A stretch of 64,000 nt of DNA, from the IMG/VR virus record IMGVR_UViG_3300042891_000711, positions 1 through 64,000 of that record. One strand, given 5' to 3'. Below the pieces are notes generated by a model, which saw nothing but the letters and a program-made list of their open reading frames with translations, did no database searches and had not been told where the DNA came from. Shown here one piece after another: positions 4,850 to 47,002 of the stretch; position 1 is the stretch's first letter; each line of letters opens with the position of its first letter. A program made the position numbers and the translations under genes. The stretch is from a virus.

Positions 4850-6766
4850 ATGAGCAAAAATACAATCATAGGTATTGACCTAGGCACCACTAATTCTTGT
4901 GTGGCCATTCTTGAAAATAACAAATCACGTGTAATTGAAAATAACGAAGGTGCTCGTACTACACCAAGTATCGTTGCCTACGGCGATGAAATTATTGTAG
5001 GTGCTAGTGCTAAACGTCAAGCAGTTACTAATCCAAAAAACACAATCTACGCCAGCAAACGACTTATTGGTCGTAAGTTTGATGAAGACGCTGTACAAAA
5101 AGACATTGACCTAATGCCTTACAAGATCGTTAAAAACGAAAATGGTGATGCATGGGTTGAAGTCAACGGTGACAAACTAGCACCTCCACAAATTTCAGCA
5201 GAAGTTCTGCGCAAAATGAAATTGACAGCAGAAGACTATTTAGGTTACAGTGTAACGCAGGCAGTTATCACAGTCCCTGCGTACTTTAACGACAGTCAAA
5301 GACAAGCTACTAAAGATGCTGGTAAGATTGCCGGCTTGGAAGTACTCCGTATTATTAACGAGCCTACTGCGGCCGCACTGGCATTTGGTTGCGATAAAGG
5401 TGATAAGAAAGACCGTAAGATTGCTGTGTATGACCTAGGTGGTGGTACATTTGATATCAGTATCATTGAAATCAGCGACATCGACGGCGAAAAACAATTT
5501 GAAGTATTATCTACCAATGGTGATACATTCCTAGGCGGTGAAGACTTTGACCAACGTATTATGGAATACTTGGTAGATGAGTTTAAGAAAGAGTCTGGCA
5601 TTGACTTAAAACAAGATATGCTAGCCCTACAACGTCTTAAAGAATCAGCTGAAAAAGCTAAAATTGAATTGTCAAGTTCAACACAGACAGATGTAAACTT
5701 ACCTTACATCACTGCTGATGCAACCGGTCCTAAACACTTGTCAGTTAAACTAACACGTAGTAAGTTTGAAAGTTTAGTTGAAGATTTAATTAAACGTTCG
5801 ATTGACCCATGTAAAATTGCTGTTAAAGACTCTGGTATTAACATCAGTGACATTGACGATGTTATCTTAGTCGGTGGTCAGACACGTATGCCTAAAGTAC
5901 AAGAAGCTGTTGAAGCATTCTTTGGTCGTGCACCACGTAAAGACGTTAACCCAGATGAAGCTGTGGCAGTTGGTGCGGCAATTCAAGGTGCGGTATTGGG
6001 TGGCGATAAGACTGATGTATTGTTACTAGACGTAACTCCACTATCATTGGGTATTGAAACAATGGGTGGTATTATGACCAAGCTGATTAAGAAAAATACA
6101 ACTATCCCAACCAAAGCAAGCCAAACATTCTCCACAGCAGAAGACAATCAACCAGCTGTGACTGTTATGGTAGCACAGGGTGAGCGTGAGTTTGTCAAGG
6201 ACAACAAAGTACTTGGTCAGTTCAATTTAGAAGGTATCGAACCACAACGTCGTGGCCAACCGCAGATTGAAATTACACTTGACATCGATGCTAACGGTAT
6301 TCTTAAAGTAAGTGCTAAAGATAAAGCAACTGGCAAAGAAAACAAGATTACTATCAAAGCTAACTCAGGTCTAACCGAAGAAGAAATTGATGCAATGGTA
6401 CGTGATGCAGAAGTTAATGCTGATGCAGATAAAAAATTGCGTGAATTAGTTGATGCACGTAACCAAGCTGAAGCACAGGTTCACGATGTTAAGAAAACTG
6501 TAGAAGAAGCTGGTGACGCGGTAACTGCTGAACAGCATACTGCAATCAATGATGCAATTACCGCGGTTGAAGAAGCCATCAAGGGTGATGATGTAGAAGC
6601 TATTAAATCAGCAATGGTAAAATTAGCAGAACCAGTAGCACCAATCTATCAAGCTAAACAAGCACAAGAGTCAGCAACAGTTGAGCCTGGTGCACAAACA
6701 GCTTCAGATGCGCAAGATGGTGTTGTTGATGCTGAATTTACAGAAGTTGACAAGGAGAGTAAATAA
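4850..6766 (+). CDS. dnaK: Chaperone DnaK (Hsp70)
   Basis: Full-length 638-aa Hsp70, the same size as Escherichia coli DnaK. The ATPase domain shows phosphate loop 1 ([13 protein letters not shown]), EPTAAAL, and phosphate loop 2 (DLGGGTFD). The substrate domain follows ([14 protein letters not shown]) and the lid ends with VVDAEFTEV, as in bacterial DnaK. It binds unfolded peptides using ATP. No DnaJ or GrpE lies nearby, so it probably uses host co-chaperones. AAGGAG is at the usual distance from the ATG. The stop overlaps the next start, so DnaK and the small heat-shock protein are translationally coupled. Confidence 0.97.
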
Positions 6767-7230
6767 TGAAACAAGTTTACACAACCCTTGACATCCCTAG
6801 CATCTATAAGTTTGCTATCGGCTTCGATGAGTTATTTTCACAACTGCAACACTTAGAGCAACGCGGTAAGGATTCGGGCTACCCACCGTTTAATCTAATT
6901 AAACTAAACGAAACTAACTACGCCATTGAATTAGCAGTAGCTGGTTTTGCTGAAGATGAATTAGATGTAGAAATTGAAAACGGTGAATTAGTTATCCGCG
7001 GCACTAACCGTGAAGTCAGCTTAGAAGAAGCTCTTCATGACCTTGAACATAATCCAGTTGAGTATATCCATCGTGGTATTGCGGCTCGTGACTTTGTTAA
7101 ACGCATCAAGTTAGCCGAGGGTGTAGAAGTTAACTCAGCACACGTTAAGAACGGTATCCTAACAGTTAAATTGGAACAATTCACACCTGAACCAGTTAAA
7201 CAAAAGGTTGCAATTTCTTTCGAAAAGTAG
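6766..7230 (+). CDS. IbpA-type small heat-shock protein (Hsp20)
   Basis: A 154-aa protein with an alpha-crystallin domain from about residue 40. The start of the domain (YPPFNLIKLNETNYAIELAV then AGF) and the end (LVIRG, then IAARDFVKRIKLAEGV) follow the IbpA/IbpB pattern. A segment of about 20 residues (EEALHDLEHNPVEY) is inserted at the dimerisation loop region. Small heat-shock proteins hold aggregating proteins until DnaK refolds them, which fits the overlap with dnaK. Myophages commonly carry one Hsp20 gene. Confidence 0.93.
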   Translation: MKQVYTTLDIPSIYKFAIGFDELFSQLQHLEQRGKDSGYPPFNLIKLNETNYAIELAVAGFAEDELDVEIENGELVIRGTNREVSLEEALHDLEHNPVEYIHRGIAARDFVKRIKLAEGVEVNSAHVKNGILTVKLEQFTPEPVKQKVAISFEK

Positions 7231-10579: not shown

Positions 10580-11077
10580 ATGAACAAACGTATGGTCTGC
10601 AATCTTTTATTGGTCGTCACGTTGACTGCTAGCGTTAATATTGCCAAGGCTGGCGAAATGGTGCACACATTCAGTAGCCCGGCATTCAGCGGACAGGGCT
10701 TTGGAATACATGCCCTTACGATTAAACAATTAGAAGATCAGGCCAAGGACAAGCGTGAATCTGCGGCAGAAGCTATACAGGCCAAAGCAGAATCTGCTGC
10801 ATTGAATACTCCGCAGGCTAGATTCATTGCTAACTTAGAATCAAGAATTTATAGTCAACTAGCAAAACAGCTAACTGACAGCATGTTTGGTGAAGGTGCT
10901 ACCTGTACTACAGCAGGAGTGGTATGCGGTAATATACCAAACCTGGGCGGTAACAGTATCGAGTGGAGTCTAGGCGCAGGTAGCGATAGTGGATTAATTA
11001 TTATTACTATACAGGATCTGGCTAATGTTGATAATGTAACAACAATGAAAGTGCCAGCAGGGACCTTTTACTTCTAA
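10580..11077 (+). CDS. csgF: Curli secretion accessory protein CsgF
   Basis: A 165-aa exported protein with signal peptide ending near NIAKA. The mature N-terminus GEMVHTFSSPAFSG follows the CsgF pattern G-x-M-x-x-x-F-x-x-P-x-F-x-G, which in Escherichia coli inserts into the CsgG barrel and narrows the pore. The C-terminal part (ARFIANLESRIYSQLAKQL, and SGLIIITIQDL) also fits CsgF. It is longer than the 138-aa bacterial protein through a charged Ala-rich linker at about 50-75 and a Cys-pair loop at about 110-118. It overlaps csgG by the TAATG arrangement. Confidence 0.88.
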   Translation: MNKRMVCNLLLVVTLTASVNIAKAGEMVHTFSSPAFSGQGFGIHALTIKQLEDQAKDKRESAAEAIQAKAESAALNTPQARFIANLESRIYSQLAKQLTDSMFGEGATCTTAGVVCGNIPNLGGNSIEWSLGAGSDSGLIIITIQDLANVDNVTTMKVPAGTFYF

Positions 11078-11943
11078 TGAAAAAGTTATTAATTCTTTTA
11101 TTAGCAGTAACATTAGGCGGATGTGCCACGGGTAGTGTGATTCGTGAAAAAGTCACAGGTGAACAATTTGATAAACCTGAAGTAGTACGTGAAACATACT
11201 TTACTAAACCGGAGAATAGAGTATTGCCTCCAGCAGGCGGTCCTGTTCCTATAGCAGTGTATAGTTTCTTAGATAAAACAGGACAACGTAAGAATATACC
11301 TAACGTGGCTAGTTTTAGTACAGCAGTATCGCAGGGTGCAGAAGCATACTTAATCGGCGCCTTACAAGATGTAGGCGACCAACGTTGGTTTACTGTGTTA
11401 GAACGTGTAGGGTTAGACAACTTGATTAAAGAACGTCAGATGATTCGTCAGATGCGTGAACAATATCAAGGTAGAGAAGCCAAGTCATTACCACCAATGA
11501 TGTTTGCTGGTGTTATTGTTGAGGGAAGTGTAACAGGCTACGATAGTAACCTGCTTACAGGTGGTAGTGGTATGCGTATTTTGGGTATAGGAGCTCAAAC
11601 ACAATACCAAAGTGACACGGTTACAGTTACTCTAAGAACAGTAAGCGTTAATACAGGTGAAGTATTAACAACTGTAACAGTTACTAAAACAGTATTAAGC
11701 TACATGGATAAATTTGGTATATTAAAGTTTGTTGAAGAAGGCACAAAAGCCATTGAAGCTGAATCTGGTATGAGTATTAACGAAAGTGTCAATAAGGCAA
11801 CTAATCTAGCAGTCAAAGCAGCTGTGGTTGCTACTATTCGAGAAGGAGTTCGAAAAGGGCATTGGGCATTTAAGGAAGAGCCTAAGCCTGTAGTACAAAC
11901 AGATGGTATAACATATCCGCTGTTAGAAACAAAAAAACAATAA
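11077..11943 (+). CDS. csgG: Curli secretion channel lipoprotein CsgG
   Basis: A 288-aa lipoprotein with lipobox LGGC at residues 13-16. The body follows CsgG: PVPIAVYSFLDKTGQRK, then WFTVLERVGLDNLIKERQMI, IVEGSVTGYDSN, DTVTVTLRTVSVNTGEVL, and the C-terminal helix region. CsgG forms a nonameric outer-membrane channel that exports curli subunits. The barrel strand segments around 130-150 and 180-200 are intact and the length matches bacterial CsgG (277 aa), so it is likely functional. It lies between csgF and curlin-repeat genes; csgE is not visible. Confidence 0.95.
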   Translation: MKKLLILLLAVTLGGCATGSVIREKVTGEQFDKPEVVRETYFTKPENRVLPPAGGPVPIAVYSFLDKTGQRKNIPNVASFSTAVSQGAEAYLIGALQDVGDQRWFTVLERVGLDNLIKERQMIRQMREQYQGREAKSLPPMMFAGVIVEGSVTGYDSNLLTGGSGMRILGIGAQTQYQSDTVTVTLRTVSVNTGEVLTTVTVTKTVLSYMDKFGILKFVEEGTKAIEAESGMSINESVNKATNLAVKAAVVATIREGVRKGHWAFKEEPKPVVQTDGITYPLLETKKQ

Positions 11944-11973
11944 TAGGATTTTAAAAATCCAAGGAGCATGACA

Positions 11974-12759
11974 ATGAAATATAATTTAAAAGCAACGGTA
12001 AGTATGATGTTTTTAGCTTTGTCAACGTCGGTAATAGCCGCAGGTCCAACAGGCCCTAACCGTGTTTACATTGAACAATTGGGTAACACCAATAATGTTA
12101 CAATTGAACAGGTTGGCGGAACTAACGATGTTGGTGGTACTGCTGGTAGTGTAGCAGTTGACGCAACAGGTCTAAGTACACTAACAGTAACAGCACCAAG
12201 TACTAGTAACTATGCTACAATCAACGGTAGCAATAATGGTGTTACTATAACGCAAACTGGTGATGATAACCAAGCGCAGTATAATATTAAAGGTGGTACT
12301 AACACCTATACAAGTACTGTAACTGGTAGCGGCAATCAAAATAAACTTACTATTGGTAACACCAACACTAACGGTATGCGTAATACTGTTACTGAGTCAG
12401 TTACAGGTAGTACTAATATGTTGATTACTAATATTGTTGGCAGTGATAATGCGTTATCAACTACTATTGGCGGCGATAATAACCAATTAACCATTGGTGT
12501 AACTACTAGCAATGCCGATATTACTAACACTATTAGTGGTAGCAACAATATATTTAATATACAACAAATTGATGCTGCAGGCAGTGCTGGTCATAGTTTA
12601 ATTACATCAACTACAGGTGACTACAACAGTATTACCACACAGCAACAAGGTACAAATGATACTACATTGAACATTAGTACAACTGGTGATCATAATACGA
12701 TTACAGTACGTTCAAGCAGCGGTGCTATAGTAAGCCCAGTATCAGCAATAGTGAGATAG
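11974..12759 (+). CDS. Curlin-repeat protein (CsgA/CsgB-like)
   Basis: A 261-aa secreted protein. Signal peptide ends near SVIAA. The mature part holds degenerate curlin repeats of about 20-25 residues with Gln-x-Gly-x-x-Asn spacing, for example VYIEQLGNTNNVTIEQVGG, GVTITQTGDDNQAQYN, NIFNIQQID and ITTQQQG. Ser/Thr/Asn/Gly-rich composition is typical of CsgA-type amyloid subunits, though it is larger and less regular than the 151-aa CsgA. The start at 11974 was chosen because AAGGAG is 7 bases before it. It follows csgG by 30 bases and is the likely CsgG substrate. Confidence 0.82.
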   Translation: MKYNLKATVSMMFLALSTSVIAAGPTGPNRVYIEQLGNTNNVTIEQVGGTNDVGGTAGSVAVDATGLSTLTVTAPSTSNYATINGSNNGVTITQTGDDNQAQYNIKGGTNTYTSTVTGSGNQNKLTIGNTNTNGMRNTVTESVTGSTNMLITNIVGSDNALSTTIGGDNNQLTIGVTTSNADITNTISGSNNIFNIQQIDAAGSAGHSLITSTTGDYNSITTQQQGTNDTTLNISTTGDHNTITVRSSSGAIVSPVSAIVR

Positions 12760-12762
12760 TCA

Positions 12763-13854
12763 ATGAAACTATTGCTTGCCGTGGTATGCTTATTAGCATA
12801 TACCAACAGTTGGGCGGGCATTGGAACTGTAAGCGATACTAAAGGTACCGCTTGTTCAATAGAGCGTGCTAAACAGACCCTGCCTGGCAACAAAGGTGCC
12901 TCCATAGAAAGTATGGATACCTATGTTACAGGCGGCTGTGTTAGCAACATTACATTTAAAGATGACACCAAAGTAAAAATAACAGAAAACAGTCGACTAA
13001 TGATAGACGACTTTGTCTTCGATCCTAAAAAATCTGACGCAGGCAAACTAGCACTTAAAGTAGGCATGGGCACAGTGCGCTATGCCAGCGGTCAAATTGC
13101 TAAGAATAATCCACAACGAGTAGACATTAAAACTCCCACAGCCAGTATTGCTGTTCGTGGTACAGACTTTAACATGACTGTAGACGAAGCCGGTCAGAGT
13201 TTGGTAATTCTTGTGCCTAGTTGTAAAGACGGTGAAAAGATCAAAGAATATGAACTAGAAGAAAACTTATGTAAAGTGGGTAAGATTGAAGTTAGTACAC
13301 TGGCTGGTATAGTTACGTTAGATAAAGCATTTGAAGGTACCTATGTTACATCGGCTAACATGATGCCTAGTCCTCCAGCTATTATTAACACAATTGAAAG
13401 TAAGATTGGTAACAGTCTTATTATCACCCGCCCACCTGAAATTGTCAAGGCTAGTAAAGAAGCAGGTAAAAGCAAACGTGATCTAGAACAAGAAGAATTA
13501 GAAGCTATCCAAGCAAGTCAACTTGCTCAACGTATAGCCAAAGAAGGCGAAGCTAAAGCTACGGTAATGCCTTACAGTTTTGACAGTGGTAAATCAGGAT
13601 GTAATCCATCAATTAACGTCTGCGTCAAGTGGGAAAATCCTGATGGCGACAGTCTACAGGCCAAAGGTCGAGGAATAGCGTTTCGTCAAAGTGAAGATCA
13701 CTATGCGGAAGTTAAAACACAGGGCTACGAAAGTAATACGTCGATTGAAATAACACATGATGATAATATTGCTTCAGCTACAATTGGCTCAGGCGATCCA
13801 GGTGGTAATGTAGTACGTATCAAACAGAATTCTGGAGTGTTAAGACGACAATGA
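12763..13854 (+). CDS. FecR-domain periplasmic protein
   Basis: A 363-aa exported protein. Signal peptide ends near NSWA. Residues about 20-135 form a FecR-like beta domain: GGCVSNITFKDDTKVKITEN, LKVGMGTVRYASGQI, and the signature VDIKTPTASIAVRGTDF. A second segment (STLAGIVTLDKAFEGTYV) may be another sheet; a charged coiled-coil part (about 225-265) follows. It is not the anti-sigma type FecR because no N-terminal cytoplasmic domain or inner-membrane helix is present. In the curli locus it may scaffold or sense exported subunits. In some bacteria FecR-domain proteins are encoded beside CHASE2 cyclases, and one is encoded at 21801. Confidence 0.8.
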   Translation: MKLLLAVVCLLAYTNSWAGIGTVSDTKGTACSIERAKQTLPGNKGASIESMDTYVTGGCVSNITFKDDTKVKITENSRLMIDDFVFDPKKSDAGKLALKVGMGTVRYASGQIAKNNPQRVDIKTPTASIAVRGTDFNMTVDEAGQSLVILVPSCKDGEKIKEYELEENLCKVGKIEVSTLAGIVTLDKAFEGTYVTSANMMPSPPAIINTIESKIGNSLIITRPPEIVKASKEAGKSKRDLEQEELEAIQASQLAQRIAKEGEAKATVMPYSFDSGKSGCNPSINVCVKWENPDGDSLQAKGRGIAFRQSEDHYAEVKTQGYESNTSIEITHDDNIASATIGSGDPGGNVVRIKQNSGVLRRQ

Positions 13855-15056: not shown

Positions 15057-17105
15057 ATGAAGAAAATAACATTAGCATTGATGCTAGCGGGTGTATTTGG
15101 TTTGAATCAAGCAATGGCCGCAAATGCAATCATCGAAAATGAATACGTAAGAGCAGGTGTAAACGAAAGTACAGGTACACTAGGATCTGGTGGTGGCACA
15201 CGTCCGGGTCTACAGTATGACAATACAGGTACAAGTACTTGGCCCGGCAACAGTAGCCAAGGCGACTATCTAACACCGGGTAGCCCATTTGAAGGTTACA
15301 CAGTTAGATTAGAAGAAGCTGATGGTACACTAATCCGTTCATATACAAATAACAATACCGGTGGTGCACAAATTTCCGGCGGTGCTTGGGTAACTACTCC
15401 AACTGCTGACAGTGCTGTATGGGCTGCAACTACCAGTGACTTTGGTATTCAAAATACCTACAGCTTACCGGCTGGTCAAAAGTATATTGAAATTGACACA
15501 CAGATTACAGCAAGTATAGCTATACCTAAACTATGGTTTGGCCGCTTTATTGATCCTGATGCTATGCCTATGCCAGGTGATACGAGTGCTACAGACAATG
15601 CACGTGGCTACGGTGCAATTCCAACTACAAACGTAGTGTTTAGCGAAGCAACAGTAAGCCGTTACGCATTAGGTTTATACTCATCAGCAACTAACGTGGG
15701 TACAGGTATTAGCCCTATGTGGACAACTAATCCTAAGGACTACTACACAAACGTTGGCGGATACAATGTAGGTAACGGAGATCATACAATTGGTTTAGGT
15801 TTCTTAATGAGTGGCGTAAGTGCAGGTGACATTGTACACTTTAACTATGCTTATATCTTTGGACCAAGCGCATTTGGTGCGGCTACTTCGGCAGTTAGTG
15901 GTGGCGCTGGTGGTGGTACTCCTGGCACTGTTCCTGGAGGCGGCACGCTAGTTGACGTAGGTTCAGCAACAGATGCAGCGTCGGGTACACCAACACCTCC
16001 TCCTGCTCCAACAGTAACAGGCACAAGCACATCAACTATTACTATTAGCGATGTTACTGCGATAAGTGCAACATTACCAGTTATTACAGCGAGCCTAGCA
16101 CACCATGATGCTACAGAAGCCGCAGGTGTACAAACAATTGCACGTGAAACAACTACTAACGTAACAACTCCAATGGAACGTACATTAGTAACTAAAGTAC
16201 GTACAACCAGCACATGGAGTGATAGTACAACCACATTCGTTGATGCGGCTCCTGTGACTGATGTTACAGTATCGAACAGCGTAGCAACTTCAGTAGCTAA
16301 TGCTAGCTTCGGTGGTCGTGTTGATCAATACACACAATTAGCAGAACTAAACACAGGTATCAATCGTGGCTTAAACTCACAACTATTCCGTAAAGATATG
16401 GTTGATGGAAAGGGTTACAGAATGTACATGGGTGTTGCACATTTAGACAGCGGCGCAGGTAACGGCTATGATGCTAAGTCAGATAAATTTAACATTGGCG
16501 TTGAAAAAGATGTTAAAGCCTACTGGACGTTAGGTGCTCAATATACCAATGTTAATACATCATTAACAGGTGTTGACAGTGCCACTAAACAAAACAAAAA
16601 TCACTTGGGTGCTTATAGTATCTTAACTAAAAATAATTGGATCTTAAAAACAGATTTGGGTCTAGCTGATAACAGTCTTAAATCAAATCGCAACGTAGCG
16701 GGTTTATTCTACAATGCCAGCAGTACTGATGGAAACGATTGGTGGTTAAGTAACCGTGTTTATACTCCTAGCTTAAACGGCTTCCGCCCATACGCAGGTT
16801 ATACATATGGTAAAGATAAACGTGATGCTTACACTGAAACAGGTAGTATACAAAGTGCTAGAACTGTGGCCAGTGTAACTGACACCAATGACTACAGCGA
16901 AATTGGTGTGCGCTATGATAAGACCATTAATAAACTAATATTGTCGGGCGAAGCAGGTGTTTCTAGTGATAGCTACAAAGATATTAAAGGTGAAGTAAGT
17001 TATCTAGTTAATGCACGTAGCAGAATTAGCATAACAGCAAGTAGACAGGAACATAAGGACTTGTCAACTAACCAAATTGGTTTGCAAGGTAAGATAGATT
17101 TTTAA
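15057..17105 (+). CDS. Outer-membrane beta-barrel protein with N-terminal passenger
   Basis: A 682-aa exported protein. Signal peptide ends near AMAA. Residues about 25-280 form a soluble beta-rich region, 280-330 a Gly/Pro/Thr-rich linker, 330-420 a Thr/Ser/Val-rich segment, and about 430-682 alternating amphipathic strands typical of an outer-membrane barrel, ending in KIDF with the terminal Phe needed for BAM recognition. The order passenger, linker, barrel resembles autotransporters, though I see no classical passenger helix. AAGGAG is at good distance. It closes the curli locus before a strong terminator. Confidence 0.75.
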   Translation: MKKITLALMLAGVFGLNQAMAANAIIENEYVRAGVNESTGTLGSGGGTRPGLQYDNTGTSTWPGNSSQGDYLTPGSPFEGYTVRLEEADGTLIRSYTNNNTGGAQISGGAWVTTPTADSAVWAATTSDFGIQNTYSLPAGQKYIEIDTQITASIAIPKLWFGRFIDPDAMPMPGDTSATDNARGYGAIPTTNVVFSEATVSRYALGLYSSATNVGTGISPMWTTNPKDYYTNVGGYNVGNGDHTIGLGFLMSGVSAGDIVHFNYAYIFGPSAFGAATSAVSGGAGGGTPGTVPGGGTLVDVGSATDAASGTPTPPPAPTVTGTSTSTITISDVTAISATLPVITASLAHHDATEAAGVQTIARETTTNVTTPMERTLVTKVRTTSTWSDSTTTFVDAAPVTDVTVSNSVATSVANASFGGRVDQYTQLAELNTGINRGLNSQLFRKDMVDGKGYRMYMGVAHLDSGAGNGYDAKSDKFNIGVEKDVKAYWTLGAQYTNVNTSLTGVDSATKQNKNHLGAYSILTKNNWILKTDLGLADNSLKSNRNVAGLFYNASSTDGNDWWLSNRVYTPSLNGFRPYAGYTYGKDKRDAYTETGSIQSARTVASVTDTNDYSEIGVRYDKTINKLILSGEAGVSSDSYKDIKGEVSYLVNARSRISITASRQEHKDLSTNQIGLQGKIDF

Positions 17106-17248: not shown

Positions 17249-17298
17249 CAAAAATTTAATCTGTTTGTAACGCTACTGTAATCTTTGTGTGTTTAAAT
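17243..17298 (+). promoter_or_regulatory. Pho-box array and promoter of the phosphate operon
   Basis: Two 7-base half-sites TTGTAAC (17265-17271) and CTGTAAT (17276-17282) separated by the 4-base GCTA match the architecture of the PhoB box (CTGTNAT-N4-CTGTNAT). A further CTGTAAC at 17243-17249 is in 11-base phase, 22 bases upstream. A -10-like TTAAAT lies at 17293-17298, about 10 bases after the box, the spacing used by PhoB-activated promoters. Host PhoB would switch on the two genes below under phosphate limitation. The transcript would start near the ATG at 17305, meaning a leaderless mRNA, in line with the lack of a ribosome site. Confidence 0.7.
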
Positions 17299-17304
17299 AT
17301 AATT

Positions 17305-18054
17305 ATGACCACAAGATATAAGACCATTTGTATATCCGACTTCCATCTTGGCACTAAAGATGCCAAGGCCGATCTATTAAACAATTTCCTTAAACATCAC
17401 ACCTGCGAAAATTTATTTCTTGTAGGTGACATAATCGACGGCTGGAAAATACAGCAGAACAAATGGCGTTGGCATCAAAGCCATACTAATGTAATACGTA
17501 GGATATTAGGCTATAGTAAACGAGGATGCAATGTAACCTATATAACTGGCAACCATGACGAATTCCTTCGTCCGTTAGTTAGTCATGGTTTTAATCTAGG
17601 TAATATTCGTATGGCCAATCAGGCAGAATACCGTAGTATCGATGGGGAACTATTTCTTATCACACACGGCGACTTGTTTGATGGTGTTACTAGACTAGCA
17701 CCGTGGTTAGGATTTTTAGGTGACAAGATGTATGATGTTGCTTTGTGGTTTAATAACTACTTTAACTTTGCCCGTAGAAAATTAGGGTTTGGTTATTGGA
17801 GTCTGAGTAAGTTTTTAAAAGCTCGTGTTAAAAAAGCAATGGGGTTTGTGTTTAAGTTTGAGCTTACTATGTTACAGTACGCACAAAAACGTGGATACGA
17901 TGGTGTTATCTGCGGACACATACACACACCCGAAATTAAACACATCAACGGCATGATTTATATGAATGACGGCGATTGGGTTGAAAGTTGTAGTGCCCTG
18001 GTAGAAGATTATGAAGGACGCTGGGATATTATATATTGGAATGAAATCAAATAG
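17305..18054 (+). CDS. Metallophosphoesterase, LpxH-like family
   Basis: A 249-aa calcineurin-like phosphoesterase with all metal-binding blocks: ISDFHLG, GDIIDGW, TGNHDEF, THGDLFD and GHIHTPE. The order and length match UDP-2,3-diacylglucosamine diphosphatase (LpxH) type proteins in which a helical cap (about 125-190) covers the active site. The exact substrate cannot be read from sequence: it could act on lipid A precursors or another phosphate ester. Control by a Pho box and coupling to a phosphate porin favours phosphate scavenging. The ATG at 17305 was chosen over an upstream GTG because it sits at the expected transcription start. Confidence 0.85.
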   Translation: MTTRYKTICISDFHLGTKDAKADLLNNFLKHHTCENLFLVGDIIDGWKIQQNKWRWHQSHTNVIRRILGYSKRGCNVTYITGNHDEFLRPLVSHGFNLGNIRMANQAEYRSIDGELFLITHGDLFDGVTRLAPWLGFLGDKMYDVALWFNNYFNFARRKLGFGYWSLSKFLKARVKKAMGFVFKFELTMLQYAQKRGYDGVICGHIHTPEIKHINGMIYMNDGDWVESCSALVEDYEGRWDIIYWNEIK

Positions 18055-18065
18055 GAGAAAGATGA

Positions 18066-19493
18066 ATGACGATACAACAGGTTAAATCAATAATGTATTA
18101 TGTAGTAATAGCATTTGCGCTATCAATGGCAGGGTTAAAGCAAGCGCATGCCGACAGCACCACTGACATTGTTAACGCACTAGTTATGAAAGGTGTACTT
18201 ACAGAAGAAGAAGGCGCATTATTAAATAAAGGACACAGTGGAGAAACAGGCGCTGCTAAAAAAGAAAAAGACACTACTGTTCATGCGGCTAGTAAAATGA
18301 GCATTCGTGGCTATTTACAAATGCGTAACACTACTATGCTCAGTGGTGATGAAGGAGTTAACCTTTGGTCAGATCGATCTGTAGGTGATAAAAACTCTCT
18401 TGCTGATCAAGACAAAAATTTCTTAATTCGTCGAGCACGTGTGATTATTTCTGGTTCTGCCGGTGACCGTTTAGATTACTACATTCAACCTGACTTTGCT
18501 AGTACAGCAGGTACTACAGGTAACGTAGCGCAATTACGCGATGCTTATGGTGATGTCAACTTGACCAAAGACAAAGTCCACCGCGTTCGTGTTGGACAAA
18601 GTAAAGTACCATATGGCTTTGAAAACTTACAGTCTTCACAAAATCGTCTAGCACTTGATCGTGCTGACGCATTTAATAGTGCGGTACGTGATGAACGTGA
18701 CTTGGGTGCGTTTTACTACTACACACCGGATAATGTGCAAAAACTCTTTAAAGAAATTCAAGATGGCGGACTAAAACACTCAGGCAACTACGGTATGTTT
18801 GGTTTAGGTATATATAACGGCCAAGGTGCTAACCAACAAGATCGTAACGACAACTACCATGTAGTGGCACGTGCTACTTACCCATGGAAAACTGAAAGCG
18901 GTCAAATTTACGAAGCTGGTGTACAGGGTTATACAGGCAAGTATGTAAGAACAGGCAGTGCTTATAGAAAAAATATGGGCAACAATGTCTACGCAACTAA
19001 AACACCAACATTAGAACCAGGCAATACAACTGGATTTAAAGATGAGCGTGTGGGTGTGAGTTTTATGATGTACCCTATGCCTTTCGGTTTGCAAGGTGAG
19101 TGGAACTGGGGTAAAACTCCTGGCTTAGATACTGCTGCTAGTACTGACGGCATTATTAAAGAAACTAATTTAAACGGTGGCTACATTCAAACTATGTATA
19201 AAATTGATAACTTCAAGGTGTTAGATACCAATGGTACATTAATTCCATTTGTTAGATGGCAATACTTTGATGGTGCGTCAAAAGCAGAAACTAACTCACC
19301 AATGAACAAAGTTAACGATTGGGAGTTGGGTGCTGAATGGCAAATTGCTCCAGAAGTTGAACTTGTGGCTTACTATCATATGATGAACCGTAGCAATTTA
19401 GTAACAGGCGCATCAGCTACTACACTAGTAAAACAAGACTATGCTAACTTTAAAGCAGATGCTTTACGGGTTCAGCTACAGTATAACTTTTAA
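18066..19493 (+). CDS. Phosphate-selective porin O/P family protein
   Basis: A 475-aa outer-membrane porin. Signal peptide ends near AHA. An N-terminal region (TTDIVNALVMKGVLTEEEGA) like the helical lead-in of OprO/OprP is followed by a barrel that opens with MSIRGYLQMRNT and continues with LIRRARVIISGSAGDRLDYY and QLRDAYGDVNL, typical of Porin_O_P. It ends QLQYNF with a terminal Phe. OprP-like porins carry phosphate or polyphosphate in through basic residues in the pore. AGGAG precedes the start. It follows the phosphoesterase under one Pho-box promoter. Confidence 0.9.
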   Translation: MTIQQVKSIMYYVVIAFALSMAGLKQAHADSTTDIVNALVMKGVLTEEEGALLNKGHSGETGAAKKEKDTTVHAASKMSIRGYLQMRNTTMLSGDEGVNLWSDRSVGDKNSLADQDKNFLIRRARVIISGSAGDRLDYYIQPDFASTAGTTGNVAQLRDAYGDVNLTKDKVHRVRVGQSKVPYGFENLQSSQNRLALDRADAFNSAVRDERDLGAFYYYTPDNVQKLFKEIQDGGLKHSGNYGMFGLGIYNGQGANQQDRNDNYHVVARATYPWKTESGQIYEAGVQGYTGKYVRTGSAYRKNMGNNVYATKTPTLEPGNTTGFKDERVGVSFMMYPMPFGLQGEWNWGKTPGLDTAASTDGIIKETNLNGGYIQTMYKIDNFKVLDTNGTLIPFVRWQYFDGASKAETNSPMNKVNDWELGAEWQIAPEVELVAYYHMMNRSNLVTGASATTLVKQDYANFKADALRVQLQYNF

Positions 19494-20427: not shown

Positions 20428-20507
20428 AATACGAGAAATTTAGCTGTCTTTAATGATTTTACGTATGTTTTTTCACCGTTTTAGGTGCTACTATATGTAT
20501 AAGTACT

Positions 20508-20538
20508 AGTAACAACAAAACATGTTGTGGTACTTTTT
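20508..20538 (+). promoter_or_regulatory. Hairpin plus T-run upstream of pqqA
   Basis: AGTA-ACAACA pairs with TGTTGT-gg-TACT around an AAACA loop and is followed by TTTTT, 24 bases before the pqqA start. It looks like a terminator or attenuator. Since pqqA has its own strong ribosome site and terminator, it may be read from upstream by partial readthrough, or from a promoter near 20480-20505 (TATATGTATAAG). Untested. Confidence 0.4.
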
Positions 20539-20561
20539 AATAATTTACTAGGAGAAATACT

Positions 20562-20633
20562 ATGTGGACTAAACCAGCAGCTACTGAAATGCGTTTCGGT
20601 TTTGAAGTAACTATGTATGTAATGAACAAGTAA
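20562..20633 (+). CDS. pqqA: PqqA, precursor peptide of pyrroloquinoline quinone
   Basis: A 23-aa peptide beginning MWTKPAATEMRFGFEVTMY. Bacterial PqqA is 22-29 aa with the start MWxKP, the Arg-x-Gly-Phe-Glu-Val-Thr-Met-Tyr core and a late Asn. The Glu and Tyr that PqqE links to build PQQ are present (E15 and Y19 here), three residues apart as required. An ideal AGGAG site is 7 bases before the ATG and a perfect terminator follows. No other pqq gene is in the window. PQQ is the cofactor of methanol dehydrogenases, so the phage may feed the host enzymes with extra precursor. The gene is too short for routine gene finders. Confidence 0.9.
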   Translation: MWTKPAATEMRFGFEVTMYVMNK

Positions 20634-20656
20634 TTTATTGTTCCGTACTGCAATAA

Positions 20657-20679
20657 CAAAAGCCCTTCGGGGCTTTTGT
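20657..20679 (+). terminator. Rho-independent terminator after pqqA
   Basis: Perfect 9-bp stem CAAAAGCCC / GGGCTTTTG with TTCG loop. It gives pqqA a very short, self-contained transcript end. Confidence 0.85.
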
Positions 20680-20783: not shown

Positions 20784-21350
20784 ATGAGTTTAATCGGAAA
20801 ACAAGTAGAAGAATTTAAAGCACAAGCATACCAACAGGGTAAGTTTGTAGAAGTATCAGAGCAAGACTTAAAAGGTAAATGGAGTGTGTTATTCTTTTAT
20901 CCAGCAGACTTTACATTTGTCTGCCCAACAGAATTAGCAGACCTACAAGACGTATACGCAAGTGACTTCAAAGGCTTAGGCGTTGAAGTATACAGTGTAA
21001 GCACAGACACACACTTTGTACACAAAGCATGGGCAGATGCTACAGACACAATCCGTAACATCACCTACACAATGATTGGTGATGCTAACCATCAGTTGGC
21101 TCGTCAATTTGGTGTGCTAATTGAAAGCGAAGGCTTAGCCGACCGCGGTACGTTTGTTATTGATCCAGATGGTGTAGTACAGATCATTGAGATCAATCCA
21201 GGTGGTGTAGGTCGCGATGCTAAAGAGTTGCTACGTAAAGTTAAAGCAGCAAAATACACACGTGAACATCCAGGTGAAGTATGCCCGGCTAAATGGCAAG
21301 AAGGAAGTGCTACACTAGCACCAAGTTTGGATTTAGTAGGTAAACTATAA
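20784..21350 (+). CDS. ahpC: AhpC-type 2-Cys peroxiredoxin
   Basis: A 188-aa peroxiredoxin of the AhpC/Prx1 group. The peroxidatic cysteine is in [16 protein letters not shown] and the resolving cysteine in [27 protein letters not shown] and the C-terminal tail match full-length AhpC (187 aa in Escherichia coli). It reduces hydrogen peroxide and organic peroxides, using AhpF or thioredoxin from the host. CAAGGAG precedes the ATG. It is flanked by terminators and lies in convergence with cytochrome c. Confidence 0.95.
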
Positions 21351-21381: not shown

Positions 21382-21681
21382 TTACTGCGTCAACACCCAT
21401 TTAACGAGCGTTTTAATATCCTCGTCTTTGATCTGTGGACTCATTGGCGGCATTGGAATAGGACCCCATACTCCACTACCACCTTTCTTAACTTTGGCTA
21501 TAAGTTTAGCCTCTGCGTCAGCTTGACCTTTATATTTGGCAGCAACATCTCGATACGCCGGACCTAATATTTTTTTATCAACTGCGTGGCAAGCTAAACA
21601 GCCACTTTTCTGTGCCAATGCCTGATTAGCATTTGCTGTGATACAACTACCTAATAATAATACTGCTAAAATAGTTTTCAT
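21382..21681 (-). CDS. Periplasmic c-type cytochrome (c551/c552 type)
   Basis: A 99-aa protein with signal peptide ending near ANA and one haem site SGCLACHAVDK. The axial methionine is probably in GPIPMPPM. KKILGPAYRDVAAKYKGQ and IKTLVKWVLTQ match small class I cytochromes of the c551/c8 group that shuttle electrons between quinol- or dehydrogenase-side enzymes and oxidases. It needs host cytochrome c maturation. AAAGGATC precedes the start. A phage-encoded cytochrome c is uncommon; its closeness to pqqA suggests respiratory support. Confidence 0.9.
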   Translation of the reverse strand: MKTILAVLLLGSCITANANQALAQKSGCLACHAVDKKILGPAYRDVAAKYKGQADAEAKLIAKVKKGGSGVWGPIPMPPMSPQIKDEDIKTLVKWVLTQ

Positions 21682-21800: not shown

Positions 21801-23825
21801 ATGATGAAAAATAAACTTAAAAAACTCCTAGTCAGTCCGTGGACTGCATTAATTACATTAGCTGTTATTGTGGTAGTAATCCTACAAGGACCTACGTTTG
21901 TAGAGTCAGTTAGACTTAGATACTTTGACACCCTCATTGGCGGCAAGGCTCCTACAGAAAATAATATCTATACTGTAAACATAGATGAAGCTACATTAGA
22001 CAAGTATGGACAATGGCCATTCAAACGTGACAAGTATGCCAACCTAATTGATGACCTGTACAAACATGGCGCCGGCCTAGTTGTTTGGACTGTTATGATG
22101 CCAGAAGCAGATCGTCAAGGTGGCGATGCGGCCTTAGCATTAGAGTTAGAAGATCATCCAGTTATCTTAACTAACATGCCAAGTCAAACAACTAAAAACA
22201 TTCCACGTAAACCAGGCAGTGCTGTTATTGGTGATGAATACAGCGACACAATTATCACCTATCCAGGTATTATTGCTAACATTCCGGAACTAGAACGTAA
22301 TGCCGCAGGTGTTGGTATTGCTAATACGTTTCCAGAAGTGGATGGTGTTAATCGTCGACTACCATTGTTTGTTGGTTATGACAATAACGTATATCCAAGT
22401 ATTCCATTAGAAGTATTACGTGTTATATCACAGGACTCAACTTTCCAAGTTAAGTTAAATGAATTTGGTGTAGAGAAAATGCGCATACCAAGTTTCCGTC
22501 CTATTAGCACAGACAGTTTGGGTCGTATCTGGGTAGACTGGAGTCAAAAGTCGACACAGGTATCAGCAGTTAATTTACCTAAAGACTTTGGTGGTGCTGT
22601 GGTTATTGTAGGCCTAAGTGCCGCAGGTTTAGCTAATCCTGTGCCAACTAGTATCGGTAGTGTATGGCCACAAGACATGCAGGCCGCTGTTATTGGCACA
22701 CTTGCTAACAACGTAAACATTGAACGTCCATTCTGGGCAGACAACGCCGAACTGTTAGCTCTTATTGTTATCTCACTTATTATTTTAATCTTAAGCCGTT
22801 GGGTATATGTTGGCTTAGGAGTTGGTGTTGTATTGCTTGCGGCAATTACACCTGTAACAATGTATGCGTTTGCACACTATAACTTCTTGTTTGATGCTAT
22901 TGTGCCCACAGCAGGTGGTGTACTGGTTATGCTACACGCTTATGGTGTTAAATTCATCAGCGAGTTCTTACAGAAACAACAGATCAAGAAACAATTTGGT
23001 AGTTATGTCAACCCTACTATTGTTGAACGTTTACAAAAGAATCCAGAGCTGATTAAACTAGGCGGCGAACGTAAAGAACTTTCAATTGTTATGACTGACC
23101 TACGTGGCTTTACTACATTAGGTGAATCGTTTGGTGATGATGTAGAAGGACTTACACAGATCATGAACGACTACATGACCGCATTGAGTATTCCTGTGCT
23201 TAAGAATGATGGTACTTTAATTAAGTTTATTGGTGATGCTAGTTTACACGTACATGGTGCTCCATTAGACGATGTTGACCACGCTAAGACTGCGGTTAAG
23301 ACAGCACTTGAAATGATCAAAGCCATTGAAGACTTTAACGTAGAACTTACAGCTAGTGGTCGACCGCCGGTTGGTATGGGTGCAGGTGTTAACACAGGTG
23401 AAACCTTAATTGGTAATATTGGTGCTAAGAGCAAGTTTGGCTATGATGTCTTAGGTGACAGTGTAAGTACTGCGGCACGGTTAGAAGGACAGACTAAATC
23501 ATATGGTGTATTACTAATCATTGGTCCTAAGACTGCTGAATACTGTAAAGATGCGTTCCCTGTAGTATGGTTAGACAACATTGCTGTTAAAGGCAAAACA
23601 ATTGGTCTAGACATTTACACAGTTGGCCGTACTAATCTTTATATGCATGAAGAATATCGTAAAGAATATACTCGAGGTTCATGGAGTAAGGCTATTGTAT
23701 GGGCTAAAAAGTTAGTTAACAATGATGATGTTGACATTAAACATTACTATGAACTAATGATTGAACGCATGGAACAGGGTGTTCCTGCAAACTGGGACGG
23801 AACATATCATGCTACAAGTAAATAA
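21801..23825 (+). CDS. CHASE2-domain class III adenylate cyclase
   Basis: A 674-aa membrane enzyme. One N-terminal helix (about 13-30) leads to an extracytoplasmic CHASE2 domain (about 35-310: LRYFDTLIGG, WPFKRDKYANLIDDL, AAGVGIANTFPEVDGVNRR). Three hydrophobic segments at about 315-385 follow, then a class III cyclase domain (about 415-600). Metal Asp in IVMTDLRGFTT and in LIKFIGDASLHVHG are present, as are the Lys and Asp that select adenine (IKFIGD, GYDVLGD). The position normally Asn in V-N-x-A-A-R is Ser here (DSVSTAARLEG); Arg is kept. It probably makes cAMP in response to a periplasmic cue, perhaps at reduced rate. Confidence 0.9.
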   Translation: MMKNKLKKLLVSPWTALITLAVIVVVILQGPTFVESVRLRYFDTLIGGKAPTENNIYTVNIDEATLDKYGQWPFKRDKYANLIDDLYKHGAGLVVWTVMMPEADRQGGDAALALELEDHPVILTNMPSQTTKNIPRKPGSAVIGDEYSDTIITYPGIIANIPELERNAAGVGIANTFPEVDGVNRRLPLFVGYDNNVYPSIPLEVLRVISQDSTFQVKLNEFGVEKMRIPSFRPISTDSLGRIWVDWSQKSTQVSAVNLPKDFGGAVVIVGLSAAGLANPVPTSIGSVWPQDMQAAVIGTLANNVNIERPFWADNAELLALIVISLIILILSRWVYVGLGVGVVLLAAITPVTMYAFAHYNFLFDAIVPTAGGVLVMLHAYGVKFISEFLQKQQIKKQFGSYVNPTIVERLQKNPELIKLGGERKELSIVMTDLRGFTTLGESFGDDVEGLTQIMNDYMTALSIPVLKNDGTLIKFIGDASLHVHGAPLDDVDHAKTAVKTALEMIKAIEDFNVELTASGRPPVGMGAGVNTGETLIGNIGAKSKFGYDVLGDSVSTAARLEGQTKSYGVLLIIGPKTAEYCKDAFPVVWLDNIAVKGKTIGLDIYTVGRTNLYMHEEYRKEYTRGSWSKAIVWAKKLVNNDDVDIKHYYELMIERMEQGVPANWDGTYHATSK

Positions 23826-23828
23826 TAA

Positions 23829-24986
23829 ATGAAAAATCAAATCAAATCAATTGGATTTGCATTAGACCCCGCAGGAACTCCATCTTTTCTATTAGACTGG
23901 GAACTTACTAAGAAATGTAATTTAGATTGTAGTTATTGTGATATTGGAATCGAAGGTGGTCATGATAATAGTATTCCACACCCGCCATTAGACGAATGTT
24001 TGTCTACAATTGATTTTTTGTATGAGTATGTGGATTTATACATGCAGAACAAAAAACCAACTCAGCGCAAAGTTATATTAAATGTCTACGGGGGCGAAAG
24101 TTTATTTCATCCTGACATTGTTAAAATTTTACAAGCGTGTCACGAAAAACACAATAACTATGCAGATCGATGGCATTTAACCATAACCACTACAACAAAT
24201 GCAGTAATTAATAAAAGCATATGGGCAAAAATTGTACCATTGATAGATGAATTTACGGTTAGTTATCATGCTGAAAATTTACCTAAACAAGAAAAATTGT
24301 TCTTTGATAATCTATTATTATTAAAGTCACATAATAAACGAGTTAAGTGTGTAGTAATGATGCACAATCAATTTGAGTTATGGGGCAAGTCTATTAATAC
24401 AATTGAATTTTGTAAAGACCATGACATCAAACACGTAGCAAAGCCGTTTGATAATGAAGATCTATCATACACCACTGAGCAATTTGATTATTTAAAAAGT
24501 TTTTGGATTAAAAATACACCATCTAAAAATGTTGATAGTTCGACAAAAAATTTAAAAACCATAGGCATTACAGAAAAAGTAGTGAGTATATGCGAAGGCC
24601 GTGCCTGTTGTGGTGGCCGCAAATTATCTTTAAATAATGATTTAAAATCTTCGGTCACTTTTATACCTAGGCAAGGATTTTACGGATGGAGTTGTAGCGT
24701 TAACTGGTTTTTTTTATTTGTTCAACAGGTAACTGGCAATGTTTATTTCAATAAAGATTGTCGTATGTCGTTGAATAATCGAGTTGAACCTATTGGTAAT
24801 TTATCTAATACTGCGGAAATATTAACTACATTGCAAACACAATTCGAGACTAAGTCGATGCCAGTAATACAATGTGCAAAACATCTATGTAAATGTGGGT
24901 ACTGTGCGCCTAAGGCTCATACTATCGAAGATTTTAAAGAATTAATTGCAAGGAATGTTGTGACTGATGTTATTAAATTTGAATAA
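23829..24986 (+). CDS. Radical SAM protein with C-terminal cysteine-rich region
   Basis: A 385-aa protein. The cluster motif CNLDCSYCD (CxxxCxxC) sits near residue 36 after LLDWELTKK. NVYGGESLFHPDIVKIL corresponds to the GGE SAM-binding motif. The C-terminal third has many cysteines (CEGRACCGGRKL, GWSCSV, CRMSLNN, CAKHLCKCGYCAPK), typical of auxiliary Fe-S clusters (SPASM/twitch). Such enzymes modify peptides or nucleotides. No partner peptide is adjacent. It is not convincing as PqqE. It overlaps the next gene by 20 bases. Confidence 0.8.
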   Translation: MKNQIKSIGFALDPAGTPSFLLDWELTKKCNLDCSYCDIGIEGGHDNSIPHPPLDECLSTIDFLYEYVDLYMQNKKPTQRKVILNVYGGESLFHPDIVKILQACHEKHNNYADRWHLTITTTTNAVINKSIWAKIVPLIDEFTVSYHAENLPKQEKLFFDNLLLLKSHNKRVKCVVMMHNQFELWGKSINTIEFCKDHDIKHVAKPFDNEDLSYTTEQFDYLKSFWIKNTPSKNVDSSTKNLKTIGITEKVVSICEGRACCGGRKLSLNNDLKSSVTFIPRQGFYGWSCSVNWFFLFVQQVTGNVYFNKDCRMSLNNRVEPIGNLSNTAEILTTLQTQFETKSMPVIQCAKHLCKCGYCAPKAHTIEDFKELIARNVVTDVIKFE

Positions 24987-42710: not shown

Positions 42711-42953
42711 ATGTTAGCACGTAGTTTAATATTTGTGGCACTATTAGCAGTGGGTGTAGCACAAGCAGATGAGCAGAGTAATGTTGTTAATCAACAGCAA
42801 CTAGCTAAACGTTCATATGCGGCACCTGTTAAAGAGAAAGAAGTTCTTGAAGGTGCTAGTGTAACAGAAGAAGTAGTAGTTGATAAAAAACATCAGACGT
42901 TGCGTTTACACATGTTAGGAAAACTTCCATACATGGAAAAAGCAACTGATTAA
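42711..42953 (+). CDS. Exported small protein, 80 aa
   Basis: Signal peptide MLARSLIFVALLAVGVAQA, then a charged, Gln/Glu/Val-rich mature peptide with no cysteine. AGGAG precedes the ATG. A TATAAT at 42664 may be its -10, though a good -35 is not seen. Its stop is only a few bases before the tmRNA acceptor piece, so the two may share a transcript. Confidence 0.7.
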   Translation: MLARSLIFVALLAVGVAQADEQSNVVNQQQLAKRSYAAPVKEKEVLEGASVTEEVVVDKKHQTLRLHMLGKLPYMEKATD

Positions 42954-42955
42954 AG

Positions 42956-43021
42956 AAATTGTTGTAGAAGCTCTAAAGTAATACATGTTGGACGGCGGTT
43001 CGATTCCGCCCAGGTCCACCA
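42956..43021 (+). ncRNA. ssrA: tmRNA acceptor piece (permuted, two-piece tmRNA)
   Basis: The 3' half of tmRNA is encoded first. The T arm is GGCGG-TTCGATT-CCGCC (42994-43010). CAGGTCC (43011-43017), discriminator A and CCA (43019-43021) follow. CAGGTCC pairs with GGGCCTG at 43085-43091, the 5' end of the coding piece (one G-T wobble), making the alanine acceptor stem. ACATGTTGG pairs with TCAACACGT of the coding piece as helix P2. The 5' end is approximate. This gene order is known for permuted ssrA of alphaproteobacteria and some others. Confidence 0.85.
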
Positions 43022-43084
43022 AAAGCATATTGTCACTAAGGTCCCGTAAGGATTATGTCTTTGGCAAGATAGTATGCTTCTGAT
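43022..43084 (+). other. Intervening segment of the permuted tmRNA
   Basis: The stretch between the encoded CCA and the 5' end of the coding piece. AAGCATA (43023-43029) pairs with TATGCTT (43073-43079), closing a loop that brings the two mature ends together, as expected for a segment cut out by host RNases such as RNase P on the 5' side. Confidence 0.75.
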
Positions 43085-43290
43085 GGGCCTGACCAGGTTT
43101 CGACAGCGTGAGATAGGATAAGAGTCAACACGTGGGGTCACGTAAAATACAAAACTCGTAAATGCAAACGCAAATACAAAAGACGTAGTTAAAGTGTCAA
43201 TGGGTCGTGGCTTCCGCTTCGGTTCACGCACTGAAGCTTTAGCAGCCTAAGAAACTGCTCGTCCGGGGTAGCTATACCTTGTTACCAAAA
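43085..43290 (+). ncRNA. ssrA: tmRNA coding piece (permuted, two-piece tmRNA)
   Basis: Starts GGGCCTGACCAGGTTTCGACAG, matching the 5' tmRNA signature (tRNA-like D-loop). The tag reading frame appears to run from GCA at 43164 to TAA at 43248-43250 and ends GAA GCT TTA GCA GCC, giving E-A-L-A-A, the usual ALAA protease signal. From that resume codon the tag would be 28 residues, beginning ANANTKDVV, much longer than the 10 residues of Escherichia coli. The 3' end is estimated and lies before the terminator at 43296. tmRNA frees stalled ribosomes with host SmpB. Confidence 0.85.
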
Positions 43291-43295
43291 ATAGT

Positions 43296-43325
43296 AGAAA
43301 GCTCACTTCGGTGGGCTTTCTTTTT
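43296..43325 (+). terminator. Rho-independent terminator of the tmRNA
   Basis: Eleven-bp stem AGAAAGCTCAC / GTGGGCTTTCT with TTCG loop and TTTT. Strong. Confidence 0.92.

Positions 43326-45093: not shown

Positions 45094-47002
<1,909 letters not shown>

Follow-up and report, generated by a model that had tools for sequence, protein, structure and literature searches.

The Lake Baikal methylophages VP_266 and VP_139 were reported in 2020 to encode the PQQ precursor peptide PqqA together with methanol dehydrogenase (Coutinho et al., PMC7678222), and the same study stated that these genes are missing from the isolate P19250A. In 2026, pqqA, pqqD, and pqqE were included among listed reservoir viral genes (PMC13188868). 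In the Methylophilaceae, 3 to 12 copies of pqqA are accompanied by what is usually a single pqqBCDE set (PMC4109929). Phage PqqA is no first, as this kind of gene has been known since 2020 (PMC7678222) and is widespread. Here we describe a pqqA gene carried by a phage that lacks both the remaining PQQ genes and methanol dehydrogenase and compare it with viral and bacterial counterparts; the window referred to throughout is the whole stretch of 64,000 nucleotides that was analyzed, which forms part of a record of 218,902 bp.

Results

The pqqA gene occupies positions 20562 to 20633 of the window (+ strand) and runs through 23 codons from ATG to TAA; its translation is MWTKPAATEMRFGFEVTMYVMNK. 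A preliminary description had read this ORF as a near-perfect PqqA retaining the Glu and Tyr that become PQQ and had proposed a comparison with known PqqA sequences, and this reading was borne out: both curated family models matched over their full length, with 42.4 bits for Pfam PF08042 (E value of 6.4e-11; cutoff, 21.1; model positions 1 to 19 of 19) and 40.4 bits for NCBIfam TIGR02107 (cutoff, 20; model positions 1 to 21 of 21). Both scores are approximately twice the curated cutoffs, and Glu15 and Tyr19 are present, spaced E-x3-Y like the two residues from which PQQ is made. Apart from the window ORF, the 218,902-bp record has no PqqA match, and the match is, on these scores, far beyond chance; PHROGs contained no match to the peptide. 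Members of the PqqA family are short ORFs of about 20 to 30 amino acids with their own translation start, and at 23 amino acids the gene is preceded by a Shine-Dalgarno sequence, AGGAG (20550 to 20554, + strand), 7 nt before the ATG, the ribosome site that had been claimed for it. The terminator suggested at the same time corresponds to a strong terminator-like hairpin predicted by folding 3' of the gene (20656 to 20679, + strand; ACAAAAGCCC-TTCG-GGGCTTTTGT); the 67-nt hairpin region has a folding energy of -21.5 kcal/mol and a z score of -4.1, and 0 of 200 shuffled sequences were as good. Further upstream, an element conserved in the relatives L321 and L466, TATAAGTACTAGTAACAAC (20498 to 20516, + strand), would match the T4-type late promoter TATAAATA but for a single base and is regarded as a candidate element only.

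The record has a GC content of 38% and represents a T4-like phage of about 219 kb. Comparison with PHROGs identified an exonuclease, a baseplate hub/tail lysozyme, and a portal of the T4 type. Many genes have the T4-type late promoter motif TATAAATA 26 to 44 nt ahead of them. A host-like metabolic gene therefore lies in a genome that also encodes virion components, in keeping with the original claim that the peptide is phage encoded, and judged by its sequence context the phage-borne pqqA is probably an auxiliary metabolic gene. A bacterial or chimeric contig, with the gene lying outside any phage, might be suspected from the many host-like genes on the record and from the fate of one match in our survey, CAKLQF020000010.1 (L276), which is labeled Acinetobacter phage MD-2021a but turned out to be bacterial, carrying ppk, fur, and a complete pqqABCDE operon. 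The portal, baseplate hub/tail lysozyme, exonuclease, and late promoter motifs on the window phage's record, together with the presence of pqqA in the complete genomes of cultured phages, render such an origin extremely improbable.

No PQQ biosynthetic enzyme accompanies the peptide. PqqE (TIGR02109) and PQQ alcohol dehydrogenase (TIGR03075) had no match in the 218,902-bp record, which thus contains no PQQ-dependent methanol dehydrogenase, and tblastn searches of the record with Methylophilaceae PqqB (a 102-amino-acid fragment), PqqC, PqqD, PqqE, and XoxF returned nothing; these searches with real host proteins superseded a strict PqqE-motif expression that had given no matches. Nowhere in the 219-kb record do pqqB, pqqC, pqqD, and pqqE lie beside pqqA as in a pqqABCDE operon. 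The earlier remark that pqqA has no further PQQ gene in its vicinity consequently holds, by profile search and tblastn, for the entire record, and the phage brings the substrate only. A radical SAM ORF at 23829 to 24986 was considered as a PqqE candidate and rejected, as it matched several radical SAM models weakly, none above the cutoff, and PqqE was not among them. Elsewhere in the window, a phage-borne tmRNA gene (42915 to 43321, + strand) scored above threshold against two Rfam models, with 111 bits for permuted tmRNA and 98 bits for betaproteobacterial tmRNA. Chaperone-like ORFs at 4850 to 6766 and 45094 to 47002 of the window and at 84566 to 87759 of G000, which by eye resemble DnaK, GroES/GroEL, DnaJ, and ClpB, form an unusually full chaperone set with an Hsp20 gene at 6766 to 7230 of the window (Pfam).

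The gene immediately downstream of pqqA encodes an AhpC peroxiredoxin (20784 to 21350, + strand; NCBIfam); ahpC also adjoins pqqA in L024 and L119, and in L321 and L466 it lies downstream of pqqA with an HNH-like ORF in between. The neighborhood shared with relatives further comprises genes, all assigned by Pfam, for a metallophosphoesterase (17287 to 18054, + strand), which is 96% identical in L321, a phosphate-selective porin (Porin_O_P; 18066 to 19493, + strand), and a CHASE2-adenylate/guanylate cyclase (21801 to 23825, + strand). This CHASE2 sensor-cyclase is 53 to 98% identical in the relatives. L321, a 104-kb contig, is a close relative in which most shared proteins are approximately 90 to 96% identical to those of the window phage, and its genes are arranged in the order curli genes, porin, xoxF, metallophosphoesterase, phosphate-binding protein, Porin_O_P, pqqA, HNH-like ORF, ahpC, cytochrome c, and CHASE2 cyclase. 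The window follows this order except that a 682-amino-acid ORF with no assigned family (15057 to 17105, + strand; placed by synteny) replaces the porin and xoxF; unlike L321, the window also has a UDP-glucose dehydrogenase gene before pqqA. The TIGR03075 methanol dehydrogenase, absent from the window phage, is present in this close relative. In L466, xoxF ends about 200 bases before pqqA, and two further xoxF contigs (L320/L037 and L491) also carry pqqA. Among the window phage and these relatives, xoxF is gained or lost but pqqA stays. Curli-type secretion genes in the window (10580 to 13854, + strand), encoding CsgF-like, CsgG-like, curlin-repeat, and FecR-domain proteins, are kept in L321 and are more diverged in L320 and L099.

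The preliminary description had envisaged a methylotroph host, and the gene content agrees. The window peptide is letter for letter the PqqA of Methylophilus, Methylotenera, Methylopumilus, and related metagenome-assembled genomes, and 120 bacterial loci with the same motif were overwhelmingly from Methylophilaceae. A periplasmic c-type cytochrome gene (21382 to 21681, - strand), 0.75 kb from pqqA, encodes a protein 68 to 74% identical to Methylophilus cytochromes, and in a comparison of this cytochrome with 185 genomes drawn from the class, the best score was obtained with a Methylophilus genome. Because of the identical peptide and the similarity of the cytochrome, the host is probably a member of the Methylophilaceae. 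The host genomes checked here contained two to six dispersed pqqA copies and one pqqE. Five marine Methylophilaceae genomes (L148, L151, L224, L235, and L244) have two tandem pqqA genes about 200 bp apart whose sequences differ.

The preliminary description had also proposed that related phages be searched for the peptide, and pqqA was found in nine isolate records and in at least 301 IMG/VR contigs. A degenerate search of IMG/VR for EMRFGFEVT-type PqqA yielded at least 120 contigs, every listed match being a short PqqA ORF, and searches for the EI type and the D type yielded 63 contigs and at least 120 matches, respectively, with 118 real PqqA ORFs among the D-type matches listed. Among the matches listed, all 183 E-type sequences and 118 of the 120 D-type sequences had Tyr19, a residue that the searches did not demand. 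No pqqB, pqqC, pqqD, or pqqE gene was detected by tblastn beside pqqA at any of the 121 viral loci among the matches listed or, again among the matches listed, in any of 63 EI-type and 120 D-type contigs, with 1 to 15 kb read per contig; the same queries found these genes adjoining pqqA at 22 to 29 of 120 bacterial loci. A scan of IMG/VR for PqqC, which requires exact peptide words, found nothing. In a second large group of viral PqqA peptides (L325 to L444), residue 9 is Asp and most sequences end in IANR or VMNR; some of these peptides resemble methanotroph forms. A motif for the Pseudomonas/Acinetobacter form of PqqA gave one match in viral contigs, inside a long unrelated ORF, and a VGMEVT-form motif gave 29; two of these, in L281 (a 265,895-bp contig) and L295, putatively viral IMG/VR contigs from one metagenome, look like a stand-alone Methylobacterium-type PqqA, and most of the remaining matches lay in unrelated ORFs.

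All nine methylophage isolate records identified here (Venkman, P19250A, MEP301, MEP401, MEP402, and four Melnitz records) contain PqqA; the Methylophilales phages HIM624-A and MEP431 to MEP434, known from the taxonomy, did not turn up in the searched collection. The search of phage isolates also recovered PqqA in the metagenomic phage record ctXG6705, and MW202697, a relative of MEP402 by terminase, had no PqqA match, so the gene is not present in all relatives. In P19250A, Venkman, MEP301, and MEP402 the gene lies in unannotated gaps, contrary for P19250A to the published statement (PMC7678222), and in Melnitz the site is annotated on the opposite strand. The Melnitz, MEP401/402, and Venkman papers that we searched do not report pqqA, and the word is absent from the MEP301 paper; within the literature searched, the breadth of distribution, the substrate-only pattern, and the unannotated presence in isolates appear unreported.

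Hosts with so many stand-alone copies of pqqA (PMC4109929 and the genomes checked here) offer ample opportunity for capture, and viral copies could in principle be neutral hitchhikers. The ratio of nonsynonymous to synonymous polymorphism (pN/pS) outside the search motif was, however, 0.22 in 105 distinct viral genes, close to the 0.24 of bacterial copies and not near 1, which indicates that viral pqqA is under purifying selection. A Shine-Dalgarno sequence of at least 4 nt preceded 121 of 121 viral pqqA genes among the matches listed, and a hairpin within 57 nt downstream followed 76% of viral genes, versus 94% of bacterial genes. Single-linkage clustering was too loose for lineage counts, and under the stricter limits used instead the viral loci fell into dozens of gene-sharing groups (33 or 61, depending on the threshold), numbers that are inflated by short contigs. 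Several T4-like phages related to the window phage have pqqA in the core replication region, between the translational repressor gene regA and hsp20, a location that also speaks against host contamination. Selection, translation signals in all of the viral copies, and recurrence in many groups, at recurrent sites, and in all isolates found make neutral carriage very unlikely.

Discussion

We consider it likely that phage pqqA is a dosage gene that feeds host PqqE, PqqD, PqqC, and PqqB and so sustains PQQ and methanol oxidation during infection. This model starts from the gene and its signals, its conservation and breadth, the absent enzymes, and the neighborhood, all of which were observed; the steps beyond these, namely expression, processing by host enzymes, and a rise in PQQ, we infer. 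During infection of a member of the Methylophilaceae, a small transcription unit of the phage itself would give rise to the 23-amino-acid precursor. Host PqqD would then present it to host PqqE, which would cross-link Glu15 and Tyr19, and a host peptidase, PqqB, and PqqC would complete PQQ. The extra PqqA would keep PQQ, and hence methanol dehydrogenase (XoxF/MxaF) and electron flow, going as host transcription declines. The peptide alone would suffice because each PQQ formed costs one PqqA molecule, whereas an enzyme can act repeatedly, and additional copies would therefore be the cheapest way to raise PQQ. The supply of more substrate to a single pqqBCDE set, in line with the function put forward in the preliminary description, would also fit the biology of hosts with many pqqA copies, and PqqA availability has been described as rate determining for PQQ in Methylovorus (Ge 2015, as cited in PMC11317620). 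The pairing of pqqA with xoxF in relatives and the nearby host-type cytochrome c point in the same direction. Since hosts already own several copies of pqqA, any added benefit hinges on dosage or on host shutoff; pqqA was reported to be dispensable in Methylobacterium extorquens AM1 (Toyama and Lidstrom 1998, as cited in PMC11317620, where it is pointed out that this work did not cover orphan copies). The absence of methanol dehydrogenase from the window phage counts against the model, as does a host assignment that is drawn from gene similarity.

The provision of a peptide without its enzymes would also be expected of a decoy or inhibitor that ties up PqqD/PqqE, so that host PQQ synthesis falls or a different radical SAM pathway is blocked. 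The viral sequence, however, does not differ from that of functional host PqqA, and nearly all viral copies retain Glu and Tyr; as an unaltered substrate it would be processed, and in relatives it is accompanied by PQQ-requiring xoxF, so that we regard a decoy role as highly improbable. An involvement of PqqA or PQQ in lanthanide handling or signaling, and not in the supply of cofactor to methanol dehydrogenase, draws on the binding of lanthanides by PQQ, the lanthanide dependence of XoxF itself, and the suggestion that orphan pqqA copies could belong to lanthanide uptake (PMC11317620); no lanthanide gene was identified near pqqA and the recurrent partner is xoxF itself, and we judge this role to be unlikely.

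With dosage as the preferred reading, it seems reasonably probable that the supply of substrate alone is a general strategy, repeatedly acquired across unrelated groups of methylotroph phages and missed as the gene is shorter than annotation cutoffs. If so, PQQ supply would be a common bottleneck of infection in methylotroph hosts, and phage pqqA points to the provision of a cofactor substrate as a limiting step that is relieved by viruses. In lakes and seas, methylotrophs act as a sink for methanol, and a single 23-amino-acid peptide seems to have become something that their phages find worth carrying. It is encoded by a recurrent auxiliary gene that length-limited gene finders miss even in published isolate genomes.

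Like the window phage, Baikal VP_266 and VP_139 are T4-like methylophages with PqqA; they have a GC content of 35%, and a boost of methanol oxidation was proposed for them (PMC7678222). The window phage differs from that type in its lack of methanol dehydrogenase. Stand-alone chromosomal pqqA genes of the Methylophilaceae share with the window gene the same peptide, a Shine-Dalgarno sequence of their own, and usually a hairpin after the gene, whereas the window copy belongs to a phage that has no pqqBCDE gene. As with cyanophage psbA and other auxiliary genes of the dosage type, the phage supplies a component of host type that infection uses up, but the product of phage pqqA is a 23-amino-acid cofactor substrate peptide and not an enzyme or a reaction-center protein.
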